From the NCBI GenBank assembly GCA_003024175.1, contig MDYQ01000206.1, positions 1 to 48,309 on the forward strand: a stretch of 48,309 nt of DNA, given 5' to 3'. The position numbers and the translations under genes were made by a program. This stretch comes from Planoprotostelium fungivorum. Taxonomy: Eukaryota > Evosea > Variosea > Cavosteliida > Cavosteliaceae. The notes beneath the pieces are model-generated. The model was not told the DNA's origin. It did no database searches and worked only from the letters and a program-made list of their open reading frames with translations. This document shows positions 38,797 to 47,223 of the stretch, piece after piece; positions within the stretch are counted from its first letter, which is position 1; every line of letters starts with the position of its first letter.

Positions 38797-39390
38797 ATGC
38801 AGCGGAGGAGGTAAACATGTCTTTTCTTGAACCACTGATTGGCTCAGATATAAGGCTTTCGTATTCGATTACGACAATACACTGACCATCAGCAATTCGC
38901 CCGCTCAACGGACTGCATACCTCGAGACAATTCAACAAATGATGCAGCAGTTGACGTCAAATGGAATATACGTTGCCATCGCCTCGTACAATTGGGACAC
39001 CGATCGACTTCTAACGGACATGGGAATTCGTCATCACTTTCATCACATCGCCTTGCATGATCGAGGTATTTTTTCAACGAGTTGATTCATCGTTTGGTAA
39101 TGATGAACCAGAAAGTAAAACGGACATGATCAAAGAGATTAGAAGACAATACAGGTGAGTGAGGGTATCGATGAGATTGATCTTCTCACATATTGATGTC
39201 GAACAGAATATGGATGAGAGAGAGAGGGAGACACACAAGCCTGAGAAAAAGCGAGATCATCTTCTTCGATGATGATCTGTTTAATTGTCAAGCGGTGGAA
39301 GCGTACGGAGTGAGAGCGATCAACATAGCCCCCAGCAGTGGGATACAAATGCAAGTGTTCGAGTCGTTATTGTCGGAATCGACACAATGA
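38797..39390 (+). CDS. small HAD-superfamily phosphatase-like protein
   Basis: Four exons (38797-38810, 38848-39065, 39112-39154, 39207-39390) give 459 nt and 152 residues. All four HAD motifs are visible: FDYDNTLT (nucleophile and acid Asp), AIASYN (motif II Ser), SKTDMI (motif III Lys) and IIFFDDD (motif IV acidic). The size and the FDYDNTL-ASYN layout resemble MDP-1-type magnesium-dependent phosphatases. The substrate is unknown. Its start diverges from the lipin gene, another HAD enzyme but only distantly related. Confidence 0.75.
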
Positions 39391-39497: not shown

Positions 39498-42400
39498 TCA
39501 TTGAACGTACGATTTGAACTGGCTCATACTGTGGTGAGATGTGCCTGGTCCAGTGACGTCGATGTGATGCACATTCTCTCCCTTTGGCCCAGTCTTGTTG
39601 AGGAATGCAGAGACGATGTCTCTATCGTTGCGAATGTGATACTGTTGGTGATGACCGTCGTGCTTCTTGATCTTGGAGGATTCCAGCGTGTTCAGAGGTC
39701 CCGCCCCAGCATTGAACGTCACGACTTGTAATCCCAACATGCTGCCCATACTCGTCGCCTGTTCACCTCCCAGTGAATGTCCCGTGAGAGTGAGCTCCAT
39801 GCCAGAGTATTTCTGCTGGACCTTCTCGATGACGTGTTTCAGCTCGTCTCGGTTGGAATAGCCTCTGAAGAAGATGTTCAGGTCACGCCAGGTCCAATCG
39901 GCCCAGGTTGTGCTGCCTCTGACTCCAGCGAAGACTTTTTTGTTCTTCTCGTCGACGTACACGGCGACTCGATCGGTGGAGGATGACTGATCGTAGACCA
40001 TTCCGGACTCCAACTTGTTCGGGCGTTCTTTCGGTCCTTGATAAGCGATTTCTGATACTGCTACAGTGTCGCGATAGAGTTGTTTGGGTATGACATCGAG
40101 GCTCTCTCTCTCTTGCCCGGGTGTGATCATGGACTCGAGGGCTAAAACTGAACCACCTCCCACGATCGTTGTCTTTTTCCTTCCGATCATTTCAATGAGA
40201 TTGACCTCCTGCTGACCTGCGTGGGCACGCGACATCGAATTCTCCTCCAGCTCTTGGTGCTTGAGCTTGAATCCACCGTCTGCACCTCGCACAGTGATGC
40301 TAGTGTTATGGCTTCGGTTGTGAAGGTGAATTGGGCCTCCCATTTCGATTGTATCGACAAATTGATCGTCCGGTGTGATGAGCTGGGCTCCCGGCTGAAT
40401 GATCGCCTTTTCTACTCGGAGTTCCGAGGTGTCTGCGATCTCTACGGAGCTTGGGTTGATGGTTGTCTGATCGTGCTCGCCCGAGCCGAACGACACAGCG
40501 GCGTCGGTGGATGCAGATTGTGACTCAGATTGAGCATGATAGCGATCCACTCGACTACCGATGATCCATTGCTTCACACGACCTGAATCGTTTCAACGGC
40601 GATATCGTACGATTGGACTCACCCATAGCACTTCCAAAGGTGAGATTTGCATTCTGAACCGTGACCGACTGCCCTTCACCGAAATTGACTGAACCAGCTA
40701 TCGTTCTTTGGTTGATTGTCGTCTCCTCCTCGTAGCTGGCCTTAGATTGAGAGTATGAACCGCCTTGTATGCCACCCAGCGATACGTCTGCAGTCACACT
40801 CTTAGATGTCGAGCTTCCGCTCCCGTGTAGTGTGGTGCCTATGAACTTAGGGTCTTTCGCCTCGCTCAAGTCTAGATGATCGGTGTAGATGCCCGATTGA
40901 AAAGTGGCGCCTTCAGATGCAATGACTTTCAGCTGGCCTTCAGCTACGATCCAGCTGGAGACATTCTCTTCGTGTTGCGTGTGAACGTGAGTCTGAGCCA
41001 AGGTCACTTGTACGGTGGGATTCAGCAGTTGTAGCACGTCCTTCTTGTTACCGTTGAGAAAGTTGTACGCATCGTCGACAGTCCCAGACAGTTGAGTGAA
41101 ATTTGTGCCCAAAGCGAAGGCCTTTCCCAGACCTCCAGTGGCGTCTCGAACCTCTCCAAGTGCCTGTGCGGTGGCAGATTGTGATGGATCCATGATGGTA
41201 TCGAGAGTCTTCGAATGAATGGATAGACCCTTTGTTTTGTGATCCATCGAATGATGCGTCGGCGTCTTTTCGAAGGAAACGTGCTTCCCCTTGATGATGA
41301 TGTCGTTGGCAGAGTAGAGATTCGCGTTGTTTCCGTGGACGTTTCCGTCGTGGGCGATGATACCCATGAGAGCATCGTCCTCTTCATCATGAATGGATAC
41401 AGAGTAGTTTTCCTCATGGTTCGTCTTCTTGTTGCTTCTATTGAGCCCTCCCAGACGACTCTTCTTCACGGTCGAATGCGTGCCTCCAGCCTGCGACAAG
41501 AGGTGGATGTCTCCTGATGTAGCGTGGACGTGAGTGCCGTTCTGACTCCTCAGGCTCGTGGCGGTGAATGTGGGATCGGTTCCTTGAATGAAATTCATGT
41601 CACTCGCTTGCAGCGCGGTCGGTGTCACTTGAGTGTGTGTCGTCGTAGTCGTCTTTTCGTTAAATGCCCAGCCAGAAGTCTTTGACGACACCCACTGATA
41701 GATCGAAGAGCCGAGATTCACTTTTCCCTTGGCTTGAATGACATTACTCGAAGTCGATGCGATGTTCACTGAGGTGGTATGGATGTCACCACCAGATCTT
41801 ATGTTGACTCCCACGTTGATCTGCCGCACTTCGGGCAGCCCATCACGATTCACAGTTGTAATCGTGTGTTGGTCACCGCTACCACCTGCGACCGTGGTGA
41901 TCTTCACGATGCCGTTCTATTCGACGTCAGATGAGAGGCGATGCGATATCACTCACCGTTTCTTTGTGAAGAAGATGCACTCCCTTCTCTCCAGTCAGAG
42001 AAGCCGAGTGAGCACCTGTCCAATGTGTGCTGGTCGAATGCACAACGCCCTCGGCCCTTGCATCTAACTTTCCGAGGGCTAGAACGTGAGAATCGAGTGT
42101 AGTGATGTTCTCTGTGGCATCGATATCCAGGTTCTCTGCCGCGGTAACTATGGCATTCTGTGCGACAACGTGTACACCCTCCATGTGAAGATTACGAGCG
42201 GATTGAACGGATCCACCGTTGATGACCACATTTGCTGCCTGACTGCTGACGGATGCATCTCCCATAGTGATGATTTTGTGGACGACAACGAGCTCGTCGC
42301 GACTGGTCAGGTGTAAATCTCGTCCTTCTATGGACTGATCGATGTTCAAACGGCCATTAGTCTCGATTGCAATGTTCTTATCAAGAGATAAAGGAGTAGA

Positions 42401-43848
42401 TTGACCCTTCTGTCCCAGTGTGACGTTCTCGTCGGTCTTCCAATGTAGTGACCCCTCCACAACGATTCCGTTCCGGTTGTACAGTGCATCGTCCATCTGA
42501 TCGTTGTCCTTCTTCGTCACAGAGAGGCCGCGGACGTGAATGTCGGTCAAGGGGGCAGAAGGTGCATCGAGACTCAGATTCTCTCCCCCGATATTCCTCG
42601 AATCGATCTTTCCTTCGCTCTCCATCAAAACTCCCTTGACTTCGTTGTTGTGGTTGGTGATGGCGGCTGTAGATGTCACGCGGGCATCCTCCAGATGATT
42701 GTTGACTAGGGTAGTCTGACCGATCTGCCCCTGCTGAACGGCGACCAAACCTGGGTGGTTTCCCTCTCTGATCGACAGCATTCCATCCGCAATGTAGGTC
42801 TCCTTGTATCCTGCTCCACCGATGGCTGAAACGTTGTGTCCTCTGATTGTAGACTCCATCGTGGATGAATTGGTAGTCTTGATGTCGTGGCCCGTGATGT
42901 ATGAGCGAGATGTGTTGCATCCATCGAGATTGACGTTGCCTTGCAATTCTCTTCCAACTTGTGATGAGTTGAAGATAGTCCTCTGGGCGTTGATGTGTTC
43001 AGATTGAATAGAGGAACCGGTGATCCTGCCGGATTGAATCGTAGCTGAATTCGTCACATCGACATCGCTGCGGTTGATGTTTGCATCGATCATCTGATTT
43101 GAATCAGCCTATCGAATGAATGGAACGCCATTGTCGTTATGAACGAACGATTGACATTTAATATGATATCCATCATCACCTTTGTATCTGTTCCATACAA
43201 ACTGACGCCATTCAAGTGCGTCTGAATGAATTCACTCCTGTCAATTTGAAGCACACTCTCTCCGAAGCTTCCTCTCGTGGCATTCATAGTCTTTCCCTTC
43301 ATGGACAGCATCGCTCCTGTGTCATCCGTAGATTGGATGTGATTGGCGACGACGTGTCCAGTGTAATGACCCTGTTTAGAGGAGAAACTGCCGTCTGTGA
43401 TGACATCCAAGTTGCCCTCGAAATGGTCCAGAGAAATGTTACCGTTGCGGGCGGAATAGTTCTTTGCCTTCATGTTCTTCAAGCGTGCATTACCCTGGGT
43501 GGAGATTTGATTCGATTGTATGGATGAGGACTCTGAGCTGGCGATGGTACCATCATACTGATAAGGGTCAATCGAATCGACAATGTTGCTTGCTGAAAAT
43601 GGCCACTTGATGCGATGGTTATCAATCGTCTGTGTCGAACCGCACGGTTTGGTAGGAGGGCATTGAGATCGTCCTCTAGGGAGGATCATCACAGAATCGG
43701 CCCGAAGAGAGGCACCGCATCTATGACCTGGTTCAAATCAGAAGGGTTAATAGCGATTGGGCTCACATTGTGGTTTCTTATTATATATATTAAGAGACAA
43801 AATGTATAACACCAATATAACAACACATGCGACGATGAAGCCCAACAT
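39498..43848 (-). CDS. filamentous-haemagglutinin-like protein with C-terminal class-3 lipase
   Basis: Five exons (43767-43848, 43180-43727, 41957-43093, 40623-41916, 39498-40582) total 4146 nt and encode 1381 residues with every phase matching. Residues 3-20 are a hydrophobic signal anchor (MLGFIVACVVILVLYILS), followed by a Cys-rich patch. From about residue 60 to 1020 the protein is a run of Gly/Asn/Ser/Thr/Val-rich strands (for example GRLNIDQSIEGRDLHLTS, TSGDIHLLSQAGGTHS, TADVSLGGIQGGSYSQSK) like the beta-solenoid and haemagglutinin repeats of bacterial FhaB/CdiA exoproteins. The last 200 residues form a class-3 lipase domain: FAGVRGSTTWADW, then GHSLGG with nucleophile Ser near residue 1290 (39765-39782), an RNDRDIVS Asp and a terminal HHS. 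It is divergent from the paralogue-like gene at 43967. Phospholipase or acylglycerol lipase activity is inferred from motifs only. Confidence 0.88.
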
Positions 43849-43966: not shown

Positions 43967-46900
43967 ATGAGCGACAGCAAAGACCTTTGCATCCCTGTCA
44001 AATGCAAGTTCGTTACAGACGATGCCCGCATCAGACTACTAGAAGATGCGGTGGTAAATGGTACCATAGAACCACAGAAACATCTTTACCTGGAGGCCGG
44101 AGAAACGATAAAAATTGAAGGTGATCCTAATGCATCGACCCCAATTGACAGAATGAACAGACTCCGGTCGCGTTGATTCACAACACAACCTCACCTTCAT
44201 TTCGAAGAACCTTTCGTGCACAATTTGAAGGTTCTCGCTCACTCTCTCTGCCTCAGTTCCGGTTCTACCATTACTCAGAGTGGTCGCACTTGTCAACTCA
44301 GTGGCTCCGACATCATCATAGACGGACGACTTTTGTCACCCAAAGATGGTGCATTACGAATCAAATGGCAGATATCAACCTATCCCTACTGCTCTCTCGG
44401 AGGCCGGATCTCCGATCTTGCAGAACTGCGATGCACCATCGTCGGGCGCTCGCAATTCATCATCACGAAAAGGACAAATTTGTGGACAGTCAATGAACTT
44501 AACGTCATCATGGGAGGCAACGGCACTGTGATGGACGTTCACACCGACATGTCCATCGGGGTCGCCCATATTACCTGTGGAAAGCTCATCATCAGTAACC
44601 GTATCAGCTGCGAGAGTCTGAAGGTTCAACTGACCAAGGGCGCCCAAGTGGTTCAATTGAATGCAACGTGTCAGCTGGGATCACTGCACATCATCAGCTC
44701 TCAAAAGAACGCGACGCTGCAGATCAACTCCGATCAGGAGATCGACAGGCTTCAGATCGAGATGAAAGAGGGAGGAACCCTGACCGTCCTGTTGGGCGCA
44801 CAAGTGAAGATCAGTGAGTGATTCTCTTCCGTGTACACACTAAAATAGAATAAAACAAAATCTGACATTACCGCAGGGCGGGAGATACTGATCTCTTCTC
44901 TACTAGAAGCGAAGGTGTTCATCGGAGTGCAAGACGGTGCGATGCTAAACAGTCTCTCCCTTGACACAAAGTCCATAACCTCTTTCTCGATCAGCGGAAA
45001 CGTAATGGTGAACGACGTTAAGATCGAACAAGGAGACTTGAATTTGGATGCTGGACAATTTACCGTGGGATCCGTCTCGGCCAGAGTGTTTTCGATTCAG
45101 GGAGGGCGTTGCGTGGTCTCTCATCGTTTAGAGCTGAATCATCTGAAGGTGTGTTCTTCATTTTCATCATCATTCGTTATCATCGTACACGCTTCATCTA
45201 TTTGTGTATGCATCAATCAGAAGCAAAGTTCGACCATCTTAGAATGATAACGTGGATTCATCTGACACACCACAGTTGATCGATGGAGATCTCAGTTTCG
45301 ACAAGGACACACAGATCAAGTGCGGTCACATACACCTCTTGAAGGATGTCGTCTGTCAGTCCAATCTCATGATACAGGCCACAAAGATCGACATCCACTC
45401 CAATCTAACCGCAAAACAACTTCAACTTCAGGCCAACGCCCTAACGATCCAGGAGAAATGCACTGTATCGTGTGAGGGAGGAACCATCACATGCGATTAC
45501 ATCGATTCCCATGGCACCATCGAGTCCAAAGACCATCTATCCATCAACTCTTGGACCCTTCACAATCGTGGCACCATCTGCGTGTCAGACAAAAAGTCAG
45601 TACTCTCTCAGCGCGGCCTTTCTCCTGTGCAATAGGGGAAACATCAAAGCGGAGGGAACACTGAAGACCGTCTCCACCTTCTTCATCAACCTGTGGAACA
45701 TCTACTGCCCCGATATCTTCATGAACAGCATCGTCACCCTACTCGGTTGGGTAAGATTTCAGGCTGGAACCAGACAGTGAGGTCTCTCTGTCGAATCATC
45801 ACTGACGCGGACCAGACCAGGCAATTGGCTCTCGTCCAGGCTTTACACATACAAATACCCACCCTGCCCAGATGGGATCAGATCGTTACTTTCGATATCT
45901 TCAAGCTGCTCCGCATACTGATCGATGCGACCAAACTCTTACCTGGTTGCAGCATGATCAGCTATATCTCCGAAGCTCTCCTCTCCGGTTATTACTTCAT
46001 CAATACCATCGTACACATGACTCAGTCTTCCGTCCTACCCACCGCCAGGAACATTTTCAATGGCAAGTTCAGTCGGGCCAATTACTGTCAGATGATCGAG
46101 GCCTTTTGACGGGATACGCGATGAAGAACGACTTTGACAACTTCTTCCAACACATCCAATCGTACGATGCCTTTCAGATTCCCACTGACTGGATGCCATC
46201 GTGGAACAGTCATGCCATCGCCCGGGCGACCGCCCGAACTGCAGCGGTGATGATCGCGCCCCGAGTGCAACAGATATCTCTCTACTCCAAGAGCACTGGG
46301 GTCGTTGTCACGGGATACTATTCAGAGAGAGGATTTCAAGCCGATCATCGATACCAGAGTGTGGCTTCCGTCTTCCACACCGCAGACTACCAGAACCAGT
46401 ACACTTCGGGGAATCTTCTGGCCGGCCAATCGATACAGAGGGCACCTGTATTGACTGTGGGTGGTAAGAATCTGACACAACAGACACAGGTGAGAAGACA
46501 AGATCATCGATGCGTTCATTCATATTGGGGCAAGCGGATTGGCAGGTCAACGGAGATGCTCCTCTGTTGTCCATCATCTTGCTGGGTGAAAGGGGCGTTG
46601 GAAAAACTTCCATTACCAACACCCTCTGCGGTGTAGACCTCTTCCAGGAGAGGAGTACAGTGACCTCTACTTCCACAGAACTGCCTGAACTACGAGCTGA
46701 GATCATCGATACACCCGGTTTCGATTGCACCAACAACGGATGGGCAGACCAGATCGACGAACTGATCACAGCTCTGTCTGAAGTGGAGAATGGCATCTTA
46801 GCCATCGTCGTCGTTCTCGGTAAGGACCTTACTCTGCAACGGTCTACCATTCGCCTGATCAACAAACTCTTGCCGAAAGAATTCAGAGAGTACATCACCG

Positions 46901-47223
46901 TGGTTCGAACTCATTTTCCTGCATTTTTGTGAGTGACATCGATGCACATCAGCCAAAGATTATATATTAACTCAAGCAGGGATCAAAAGAGAAGAACAGA
47001 GGAGAGAGAAATCATGCAGAACCACAAGGACTTGCAACATCTTGGGGCGAACATCATCCACGTCAACTTACCACCTGAACACGAGATGGGATCAGATGAG
47101 GCCAGATGTTGCAGTAGAAACATCATGATGCATCATTTTCTGCTTCGTAGCATGTCAAAGGGGCGACGTCCTCTCCGGTTCGATAAGTCCAACCTCATCG
47201 AAATGTTAAGCGACATAAACTGA
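43967..47223 (+). CDS. beta-solenoid (haemagglutinin-like) protein fused to AIG1/GIMAP-like GTPase
   Basis: Nine exons (43967-44120, 44208-44813, 44877-45148, 45243-45595, 45636-45750, 45816-46062, 46092-46489, 46546-46928, 46980-47223) total 2772 nt and encode 923 residues with matching phases. One intron (46063-46091) is a 29-nt GC-AG type. Residues from about 50 to 510 form repeated short beta strands (LKVQLTKGAQVVQL, LNLDAGQFTVGSVS, LQLQANALTIQEKC) like a solenoid, followed by a helical hydrophobic region. From about residue 718 there is a P-loop GTPase with G1 GERGVGKTS (46585-46611) and G3 DTPGF (46708-46722), and a weak G4 (RTHF), which fits AIG1/GIMAP septin-like GTPases. No N-terminal signal is visible, unlike its divergent partner. 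Fusion of the two halves rests on the phase-0 splice at 46489/46546. Confidence 0.82.

Follow-up and report, generated by a model that had tools for sequence, protein, structure and literature searches.

An intron-bearing amoebozoan gene that joins a haemagglutinin-like solenoid to a class-3 lipase and probably descends from bacterial effector proteins

Is a bacterial-type weapon used by a fungus-eating amoeba against its prey or its invaders? The question is raised by PROFUN_13344, a gene of the amoebozoan Planoprotostelium fungivorum on the minus strand of contig MDYQ01000206.1 (39498-43848), whose product an earlier note on this DNA had described as an FhaB/CdiA-like protein with a lipase effector domain. 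The window analysed here is that one entire contig of 48,309 bases, from an assembly of 36.86 Mb. PROFUN_13344 is probably descended from bacterial effector proteins of the filamentous haemagglutinin (FHA) type, and the observed basis for this is frame-breaking introns, an FHA-like profile signal, a lipase above its Pfam cut-off and the occurrence in bacteria of proteins whose parts follow one another in this order.

Gene structure, solenoid and lipase

PROFUN_13344 is modelled with five exons, all on the minus strand, which encode 1386 amino acids (aa): exon 1 (43767..43848), with the start codon and an N-terminal hydrophobic segment, exon 2 (43180..43727), the beta-solenoid-like exon 3 (41957..43108), exon 4 (40623..41916), with an FHA-like solenoid, and exon 5 (39498..40582), which holds the solenoid end, the lipase and the stop codon. 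The four introns (39, 71, 40, and 40 nt) are all of the form GT...AG; intron 1 contains an in-frame stop, and introns 2-4 have lengths not divisible by three. The NCBI model (P0001) has 1361 residues and differs in introns 1 and 2, and the donor of intron 1 in the present model, GTGAGC, is similar to the GTGAGT at introns 3 and 4. The gene and the four introns claimed earlier are retained at these coordinates, but the length, given then as 1381 residues, is 1386 in the present model.

The FHA-like signal was obtained with profiles made from bacterial sequences that were picked independently of the amoeba gene. The first profile, built from 31 bacterial regions surrounding Fil_haemagg_2 (FHA-2) matches, matches aa 487-807, a stretch that runs across intron 3 (41278..42280, minus strand), at 19.5 bits (E 5.5e-6, with 602 sequences searched). 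On the same profile, 300 window shuffles reached at most -2.8, the best domain of the reversed copy scored -1.5, and the passenger of Ag43, which we take to be a beta-helix of a kind other than FHA, scored -7.6, while 300 permutations of 30-residue blocks peaked at 18.8 and 17.5 and then fell to 5.8. When the 369 open reading frames of the window and of 13 further loci were ranked, a genuine CdiA came first, followed by exon 4 (12.0 bits) and exon 3 (10.1 bits), with the next frame at 3.2. A segment at aa 786-850 (41149..41343, minus strand) resembles the FHA-2 "KxSGLTL" region and scores 8.0 bits alone (z 4.5) and 5.8 in the entire protein; one of 1000 shuffles scored as high (965 reported), a frequency that is partly post hoc because the segment was first spotted by eye. 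In pairwise comparison by blastp with 41 bacterial FHA pieces, PROFUN_13344 gave six matches of at least 30 bits (best 38.9), with 27.3 bits for the reversed sequence and at most 31.6 for 40 shuffles. Exon 3, folded alone as a single sequence, is modelled mostly as beta strands at low confidence, with a mean predicted local distance difference test score (pLDDT) of 39.5 and ten-residue means of 50-63 confined to exon residues 221-330. The haemagglutinin-type solenoid, to which the earlier note had assigned about 950 residues, is upheld, as a sequence signal, for aa 487-807, and the rest is no more than compatible with it.

The C-terminal part, approximately aa 1190-1386 (39501..40091, minus strand), is supported by a Pfam match and by pairwise matches. 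Lipase_3 scores 25.3 bits at aa 1268-1350 against a cut-off of 22, which bears out the C-terminal class-3 lipase with an intact GHSLGG proposed earlier; UPF0227 also matches the protein, at 21.5 bits, half a bit above its cut-off of 21. The columns of Ser1295, within GHSLGG, and of the C-terminal His1376 align with nine bacterial lipases. The bacterial aspartate or glutamate of the triad sits opposite a gap in the alignment with the PROFUN_13344 lipase, and Asp1347 is proposed as a candidate acid residue from the motif NDRDIV only. A model of the lipase made without relatives reached a mean pLDDT of 34.4. Across its own genome, 32 Lipase_3 matches were counted by exon, which suggests a sizeable lipase repertoire. 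A protein database additionally gives PROFUN_13344 a precomputed Pfam domain, PF26363, which lies outside the Pfam release searched here.

The hydrophobic segment at aa 3-22 (43783-43842, minus strand) has a mean hydropathy of 2.94 over aa 1-19. The present model retains this segment, whereas the NCBI model removes most of it as an intron, and the putative membrane anchor of the earlier note is consequently kept in the former model and largely spliced out in the latter. Lysines follow directly after the segment (NKKP), and by the positive-inside rule lysines that flank a membrane segment favour the cytosolic side. These lysines, together with a neighbouring protein described below that has no strong hydrophobic N-terminal segment, lean towards a cytosolic side for the putative stalk. 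N-glycosylation sequons number 20 per 1386 residues, and about 17 are predicted from composition.

Bacterial proteins with the same layout

A six-frame search with the lipase, covering 398 genomes from the phylum of G002 (the home of the Chimaeribacter locus L020), gave matches in 35 genomes at E<=0.1, mostly weak. One of them, in genome G297, shares an open frame of 1192 residues with Fil_haemagg_2 matches, and a bacterial FHA-2 protein with a C-terminal lipase-like part therefore exists. Both parts of PROFUN_13344, aa 631-728 and aa 1257-1317, have matches in the G297 protein, each with a pairwise E of ~4e-4, and the order of the two is kept there. The G297 C-terminus, compared with 299 genomes of its order, found 16 loci in 12 genomes at E<=0.001, and 13 of the 14 loci tried gave a frame with the lipase motif. 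An FHA signal was present in the same frame in four of those 13, namely L091, L093, and L094, which are matched by Pfam Fil_haemagg_2 too, and L092, whose FHA part was seen by our own profile only (28.2 bits). This FHA-lipase layout thus recurs within a single order of bacteria, in 4 of its 299 sampled genomes, with frames of 1192 aa (G297), 2361 aa (G474), 1917 aa (G465), and 529 aa (G562), with the FHA evidence coming from Pfam in the first three and from our own profile only in G562 (28.2 bits). L089 (G297), L107 (G474), L108 (G465), and L109 (G562) were seen to consist of FHA repeats ending in a GNSLGG lipase-like domain. These proteins are like PROFUN_13344 in having FHA-2 repeats followed by a C-terminal GxSLGG hydrolase, and differ in their GNSLGG motif and uninterrupted frame; the G297 protein is 29-31% similar to PROFUN_13344, in short stretches only, and those of G474, G465, and G562 show either no similarity or none that is significant.

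Four other loci, L096-L099, carry a PAAR motif in place of FHA and are apparently effectors of the type VI secretion system (T6SS) type; Pfam Lipase_3 is below its cut-off in three of them and unlisted in the fourth. Their class-3-type lipases share GHSLGG and the C-terminal His region with the amoeba lipase and differ in the N-terminal carrier, which is PAAR and not FHA. By pairwise E, the amoeba lipase matches the PAAR-linked L098 (E 6.8e-10) and L097 (2.4e-9) best, followed by L105 (1.8e-8), which has no PAAR hit, and L096 (8.5e-8). In comparison, the best pairwise E with lipases of its own genome was 2.6e-4, for a set of six pieces from 8 fetched loci out of the 32 own matches, which also served for a profile. 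The effector-lipase profile gives the amoeba lipase 34.2 bits, and the own-lipase profile gives it 12.5, with shuffles at or below 6.7 on each. This affinity to effector lipases is not decisive, as the own lipases, too, reach 12-27 bits with the effector-lipase profile. Among the other bacterial frames, L090 (G203) spans 3222 residues and has, as judged by eye, a GHSLGG lipase-like part at its N-terminus, ahead of calcium-binding-type repeats.

Origin of the gene and its competing explanations

An old acquisition of a bacterial FHA-effector-type gene, domesticated as a membrane-tethered lipid hydrolase, is favoured here with fair confidence. The identity and origin of the gene (bacterial FHA-effector type, transferred) is the firmer component and appears likely, and an anti-microbial use, for which the earlier note gave predation or defence as examples, is put forward tentatively. 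From the observations given above we infer the transfer itself, a membrane tether, a solenoid that acts as a stalk and the cutting of lipids by the C-terminal serine hydrolase.

A number of results weigh against this reading. Neither the Pfam scan of PROFUN_13344 (at E<=1) nor NCBIfam, PADLOC, and PHROGs gave any haemagglutinin family; two of the 300 block permutations come close to the real 19.5 bits of the first profile; and a second FHA profile, built from eight full-length proteins as a small alignment with closely related members, gave no signal in PROFUN_13344 (-1.6). Compared directly with a single CdiA, PROFUN_13344 gave a weak match (E 0.016 by blastp and 1.4 bits for the best phmmer domain). 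Another stretch that looked like FHA-2 by eye, aa 915-1035, did not stand out from its shuffles: of the 996 reported, 195 scored as high (z 1.1; reversed copy z 2.9). For PF13332, which has no Pfam match in the protein, one segment is thus above shuffles (aa 786-850) and one is not. The structure models of exon 3 and of the lipase are too poor for use. Foldseek with the exon 3 model listed 12 entries, of which the best had an E of 3.7 and none reached 0.001; several are presumably beta-helical, and the result is given no weight. Among the FHA-linked bacterial proteins only that of G297 matches well. The protein search with PROFUN_13344 found itself only, among 8000 candidates scored, and word-based protein searches with the lipase found no relative beyond PROFUN_13344.

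The strongest competitor, which we consider rather unlikely, is that the gene was assembled within a eukaryote from a repeat or solenoid protein and an own class-3 lipase, with the FHA likeness arising by convergence. The 32 Lipase_3 matches in the organism's own genome and the absence of a haemagglutinin repeat from the Pfam result are in keeping with such an assembly, as is the behaviour of the neighbouring solenoid, which scored 35.0 bits by blastp in its real and 34.7 in its reversed orientation; solenoid pairwise scores can therefore mislead and are weak evidence. The lipase phylogeny has 33 rows (besides the query, these are the 14 motif-bearing loci among 20 from the phylum search, 13 G297-search loci, one of which is the same protein as a phylum-search row, and five own-genome loci from the 8 fetched), and in it the amoeba domain is a long branch whose grouping with effector lipases is weak (83/45). 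Approximately unbiased (AU) tests gave p 0.56 for the lipase with own lipases plus one bacterial row, 0.51 with the effector core, 0.087 with own lipases alone, and 0.19 with FHA-linked lipases alone; none of the four placements is rejected, an ambiguity that counts against a bacterial origin, and the trees cannot place the lipase. Opposed to assembly within a eukaryote are the profile matches above window shuffles, the reversed sequence and Ag43, the lead of the effector-lipase over the own-lipase profile (34.2 against 12.5 bits), and the existence of bacteria with both parts in the same order. An old horizontal transfer, as proposed in the earlier note, is the best reading, but the tree is no proof of it.

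A transferred gene may alternatively have been retained as an adhesin that binds prey or a substrate, with a lipase that is vestigial or secondary, which appears improbable. According to one account, Acanthamoeba has bacterial-like "hemagglutinin domain adhesion proteins" with a suggested attachment to bacteria or biofilms (PMC4053784). Compared by that description only, they resemble PROFUN_13344 in having haemagglutinin domains in an amoebozoan and differ in being termed adhesion proteins; they form a precedent in Amoebozoa (PMC4053784). Retention of GHSLGG and of the C-terminal His relative to nine bacterial lipases argues for selection on catalysis, with the acid residue unaligned.

Bacterial contamination of the assembly, for which the position of the gene less than 5 kb from the end of the contig could be cited, is highly improbable because the introns, if spliced, break the frame and codon usage is like that of the neighbours (r 0.884 against six other contig frames, three with Pfam matches), and it is opposed also by the HECT gene and others on the contig and by the finding of no similar bacterial protein in the protein, plasmid/phage tblastn and genome searches made. 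In these searches, plasmid and phage tblastn gave four weak records in each of two runs and zero in a third, and two of the weak matches lay inside hypothetical proteins of ~271 and 351 residues and were discarded; a genome scan with the whole protein gave 12 stretches, none confirmed, and no match was confirmed in the viral contigs searched. Sequence searches of the PDB gave four lipases at E 0.8-1 and, in another run, one unrelated entry. A search of the amoeba's genome, limited as it was, turned up no second copy of PROFUN_13344 or of its neighbour. PF13332 and PF05594 found no FHA gene in the amoeba's own genome; PF13332 matched in two bacterial genomes as a working control, but both families also miss PROFUN_13344, and their silence is therefore no proof that other FHA genes are absent.

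PROFUN_13344 may be compared with FhaB and CdiA, the TpsA exoproteins of two-partner secretion (TPS), with which it shares an FHA-like solenoid (as a sequence signal only) and a C-terminal effector-type domain. It differs in being eukaryotic and intron-bearing and in having no detected TPS domain or partner. No TPS (Haemagg_act) domain was found, Lipase_3 and UPF0227 being the sole Pfam families at E<=1; as the repeats escape Pfam too, a strongly diverged TPS domain may have gone unseen. For the TpsB partner (FhaC/CdiB/ShlB), there was no PF03865 match in the genome, and the controls were silent too. PROFUN_13344 is therefore not filed as TpsA/CdiA, and the label "FhaB/CdiA-like" is kept as a resemblance and dropped as family membership. 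What is supported of the earlier description is its core, an FHA-like solenoid and an effector-type lipase in an intron-bearing gene, for which bacterial proteins with the same part order were found.

In the proposed mechanism, an FHA-effector gene would have been taken up long ago from bacteria by an ancestor of the amoeba, and would then have gained spliceosomal introns and an N-terminal membrane segment and lost its bacterial secretion domain. Since no TPS domain was seen, the bacterial export route is probably unused; if the exon 1 model is correct, the N-terminal hydrophobic segment would direct the protein to a membrane instead, and the stalk would hold the lipid hydrolase away from, or along, that membrane. 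The targets may be prey membranes in the phagosome or, if the protein faces the cytosol, the membrane of the vacuole around an invader. Protostelium aurantium is presumably close to Planoprotostelium fungivorum. A fungus-eating amoeba is described under the former name in one report (PMC7251208), and such a diet makes an anti-microbial or digestive role reasonable.

The divergent neighbour and the meaning of the pair

On the plus strand, a divergently oriented gene begins at 43967, with 118 bp between it and the PROFUN_13344 start codon. Its N-terminal part (43967..45750) is modelled in five exons (43967-44120, 44208-44813, 44877-45148, 45243-45595, and 45636 to ~45750), contains FHA-like repeats, and has no strong hydrophobic segment (maximum mean hydropathy 1.21). 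It scores 19.1 bits on the second, full-length FHA profile (150 shuffles at or below 3.3; reversed 0.6) and is negative on the first profile of 31 regions (-6.4); the open reading frame 45243-45635 alone reaches 22.9 bits, the top non-CdiA frame of the 369. Downstream on the same strand lies an AIG1/GIMAP-type GTPase (46109..47223, in exons 46109-46489, 46546-46928, and 46980-47223), in which Pfam finds the AIG1 domain at 37.7 bits (E 1.8e-9, cut-off 27). No continuous frame was found between ~45750 and 46109 (~360 bases), a gap that may reflect a missed intron, a sequencing error, decay or two genes, and the neighbour and the GTPase may accordingly be one gene, two or a broken one. The FHA-like repeats of the neighbour and the downstream AIG1 GTPase were unmentioned in the earlier note.

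Elsewhere on the contig, three of the nine other frames tested match Pfam (RNase_PH, Asn_synthase, and HECT), and the remaining six match none of its families. A little beyond the end of the lipase, on its downstream side (38800-39390, plus strand), exons resembling a HAD-type phosphatase were seen by eye.

One paper names C-terminal GIMAP GTPase or lipase-like domains in effectors of amoeba-dwelling bacteria and reports toxin domains of bacterial conflict systems in eukaryotes (PMC3482391). Both kinds of C-terminal domain recur in the pair formed by PROFUN_13344 and its neighbour; the endosymbiont effectors differ in belonging to bacteria that live inside cells and in their N-terminal parts (PMC3482391). 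No report of the present architecture was found in the literature, judging by titles and the openings of abstracts, with subscription journals mostly uncovered. It is conceivable, though unlikely, that the divergent pair derives from bacterial FHA effectors and was turned into an immune or feeding system of the amoeba on microbe-containing vacuoles; the division of labour that this implies, an FHA-like stalk with a membrane-tethered lipase acting together with an FHA-like stalk with a GIMAP-type GTPase, is equally speculative. If the bacterial descent of PROFUN_13344 is true, an entire stalk-plus-effector layout in an intron-bearing gene would show that such a takeover can extend to the carrier architecture. 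If the reading of the pair is also true, a polymorphic-effector architecture would have been domesticated in a eukaryote.

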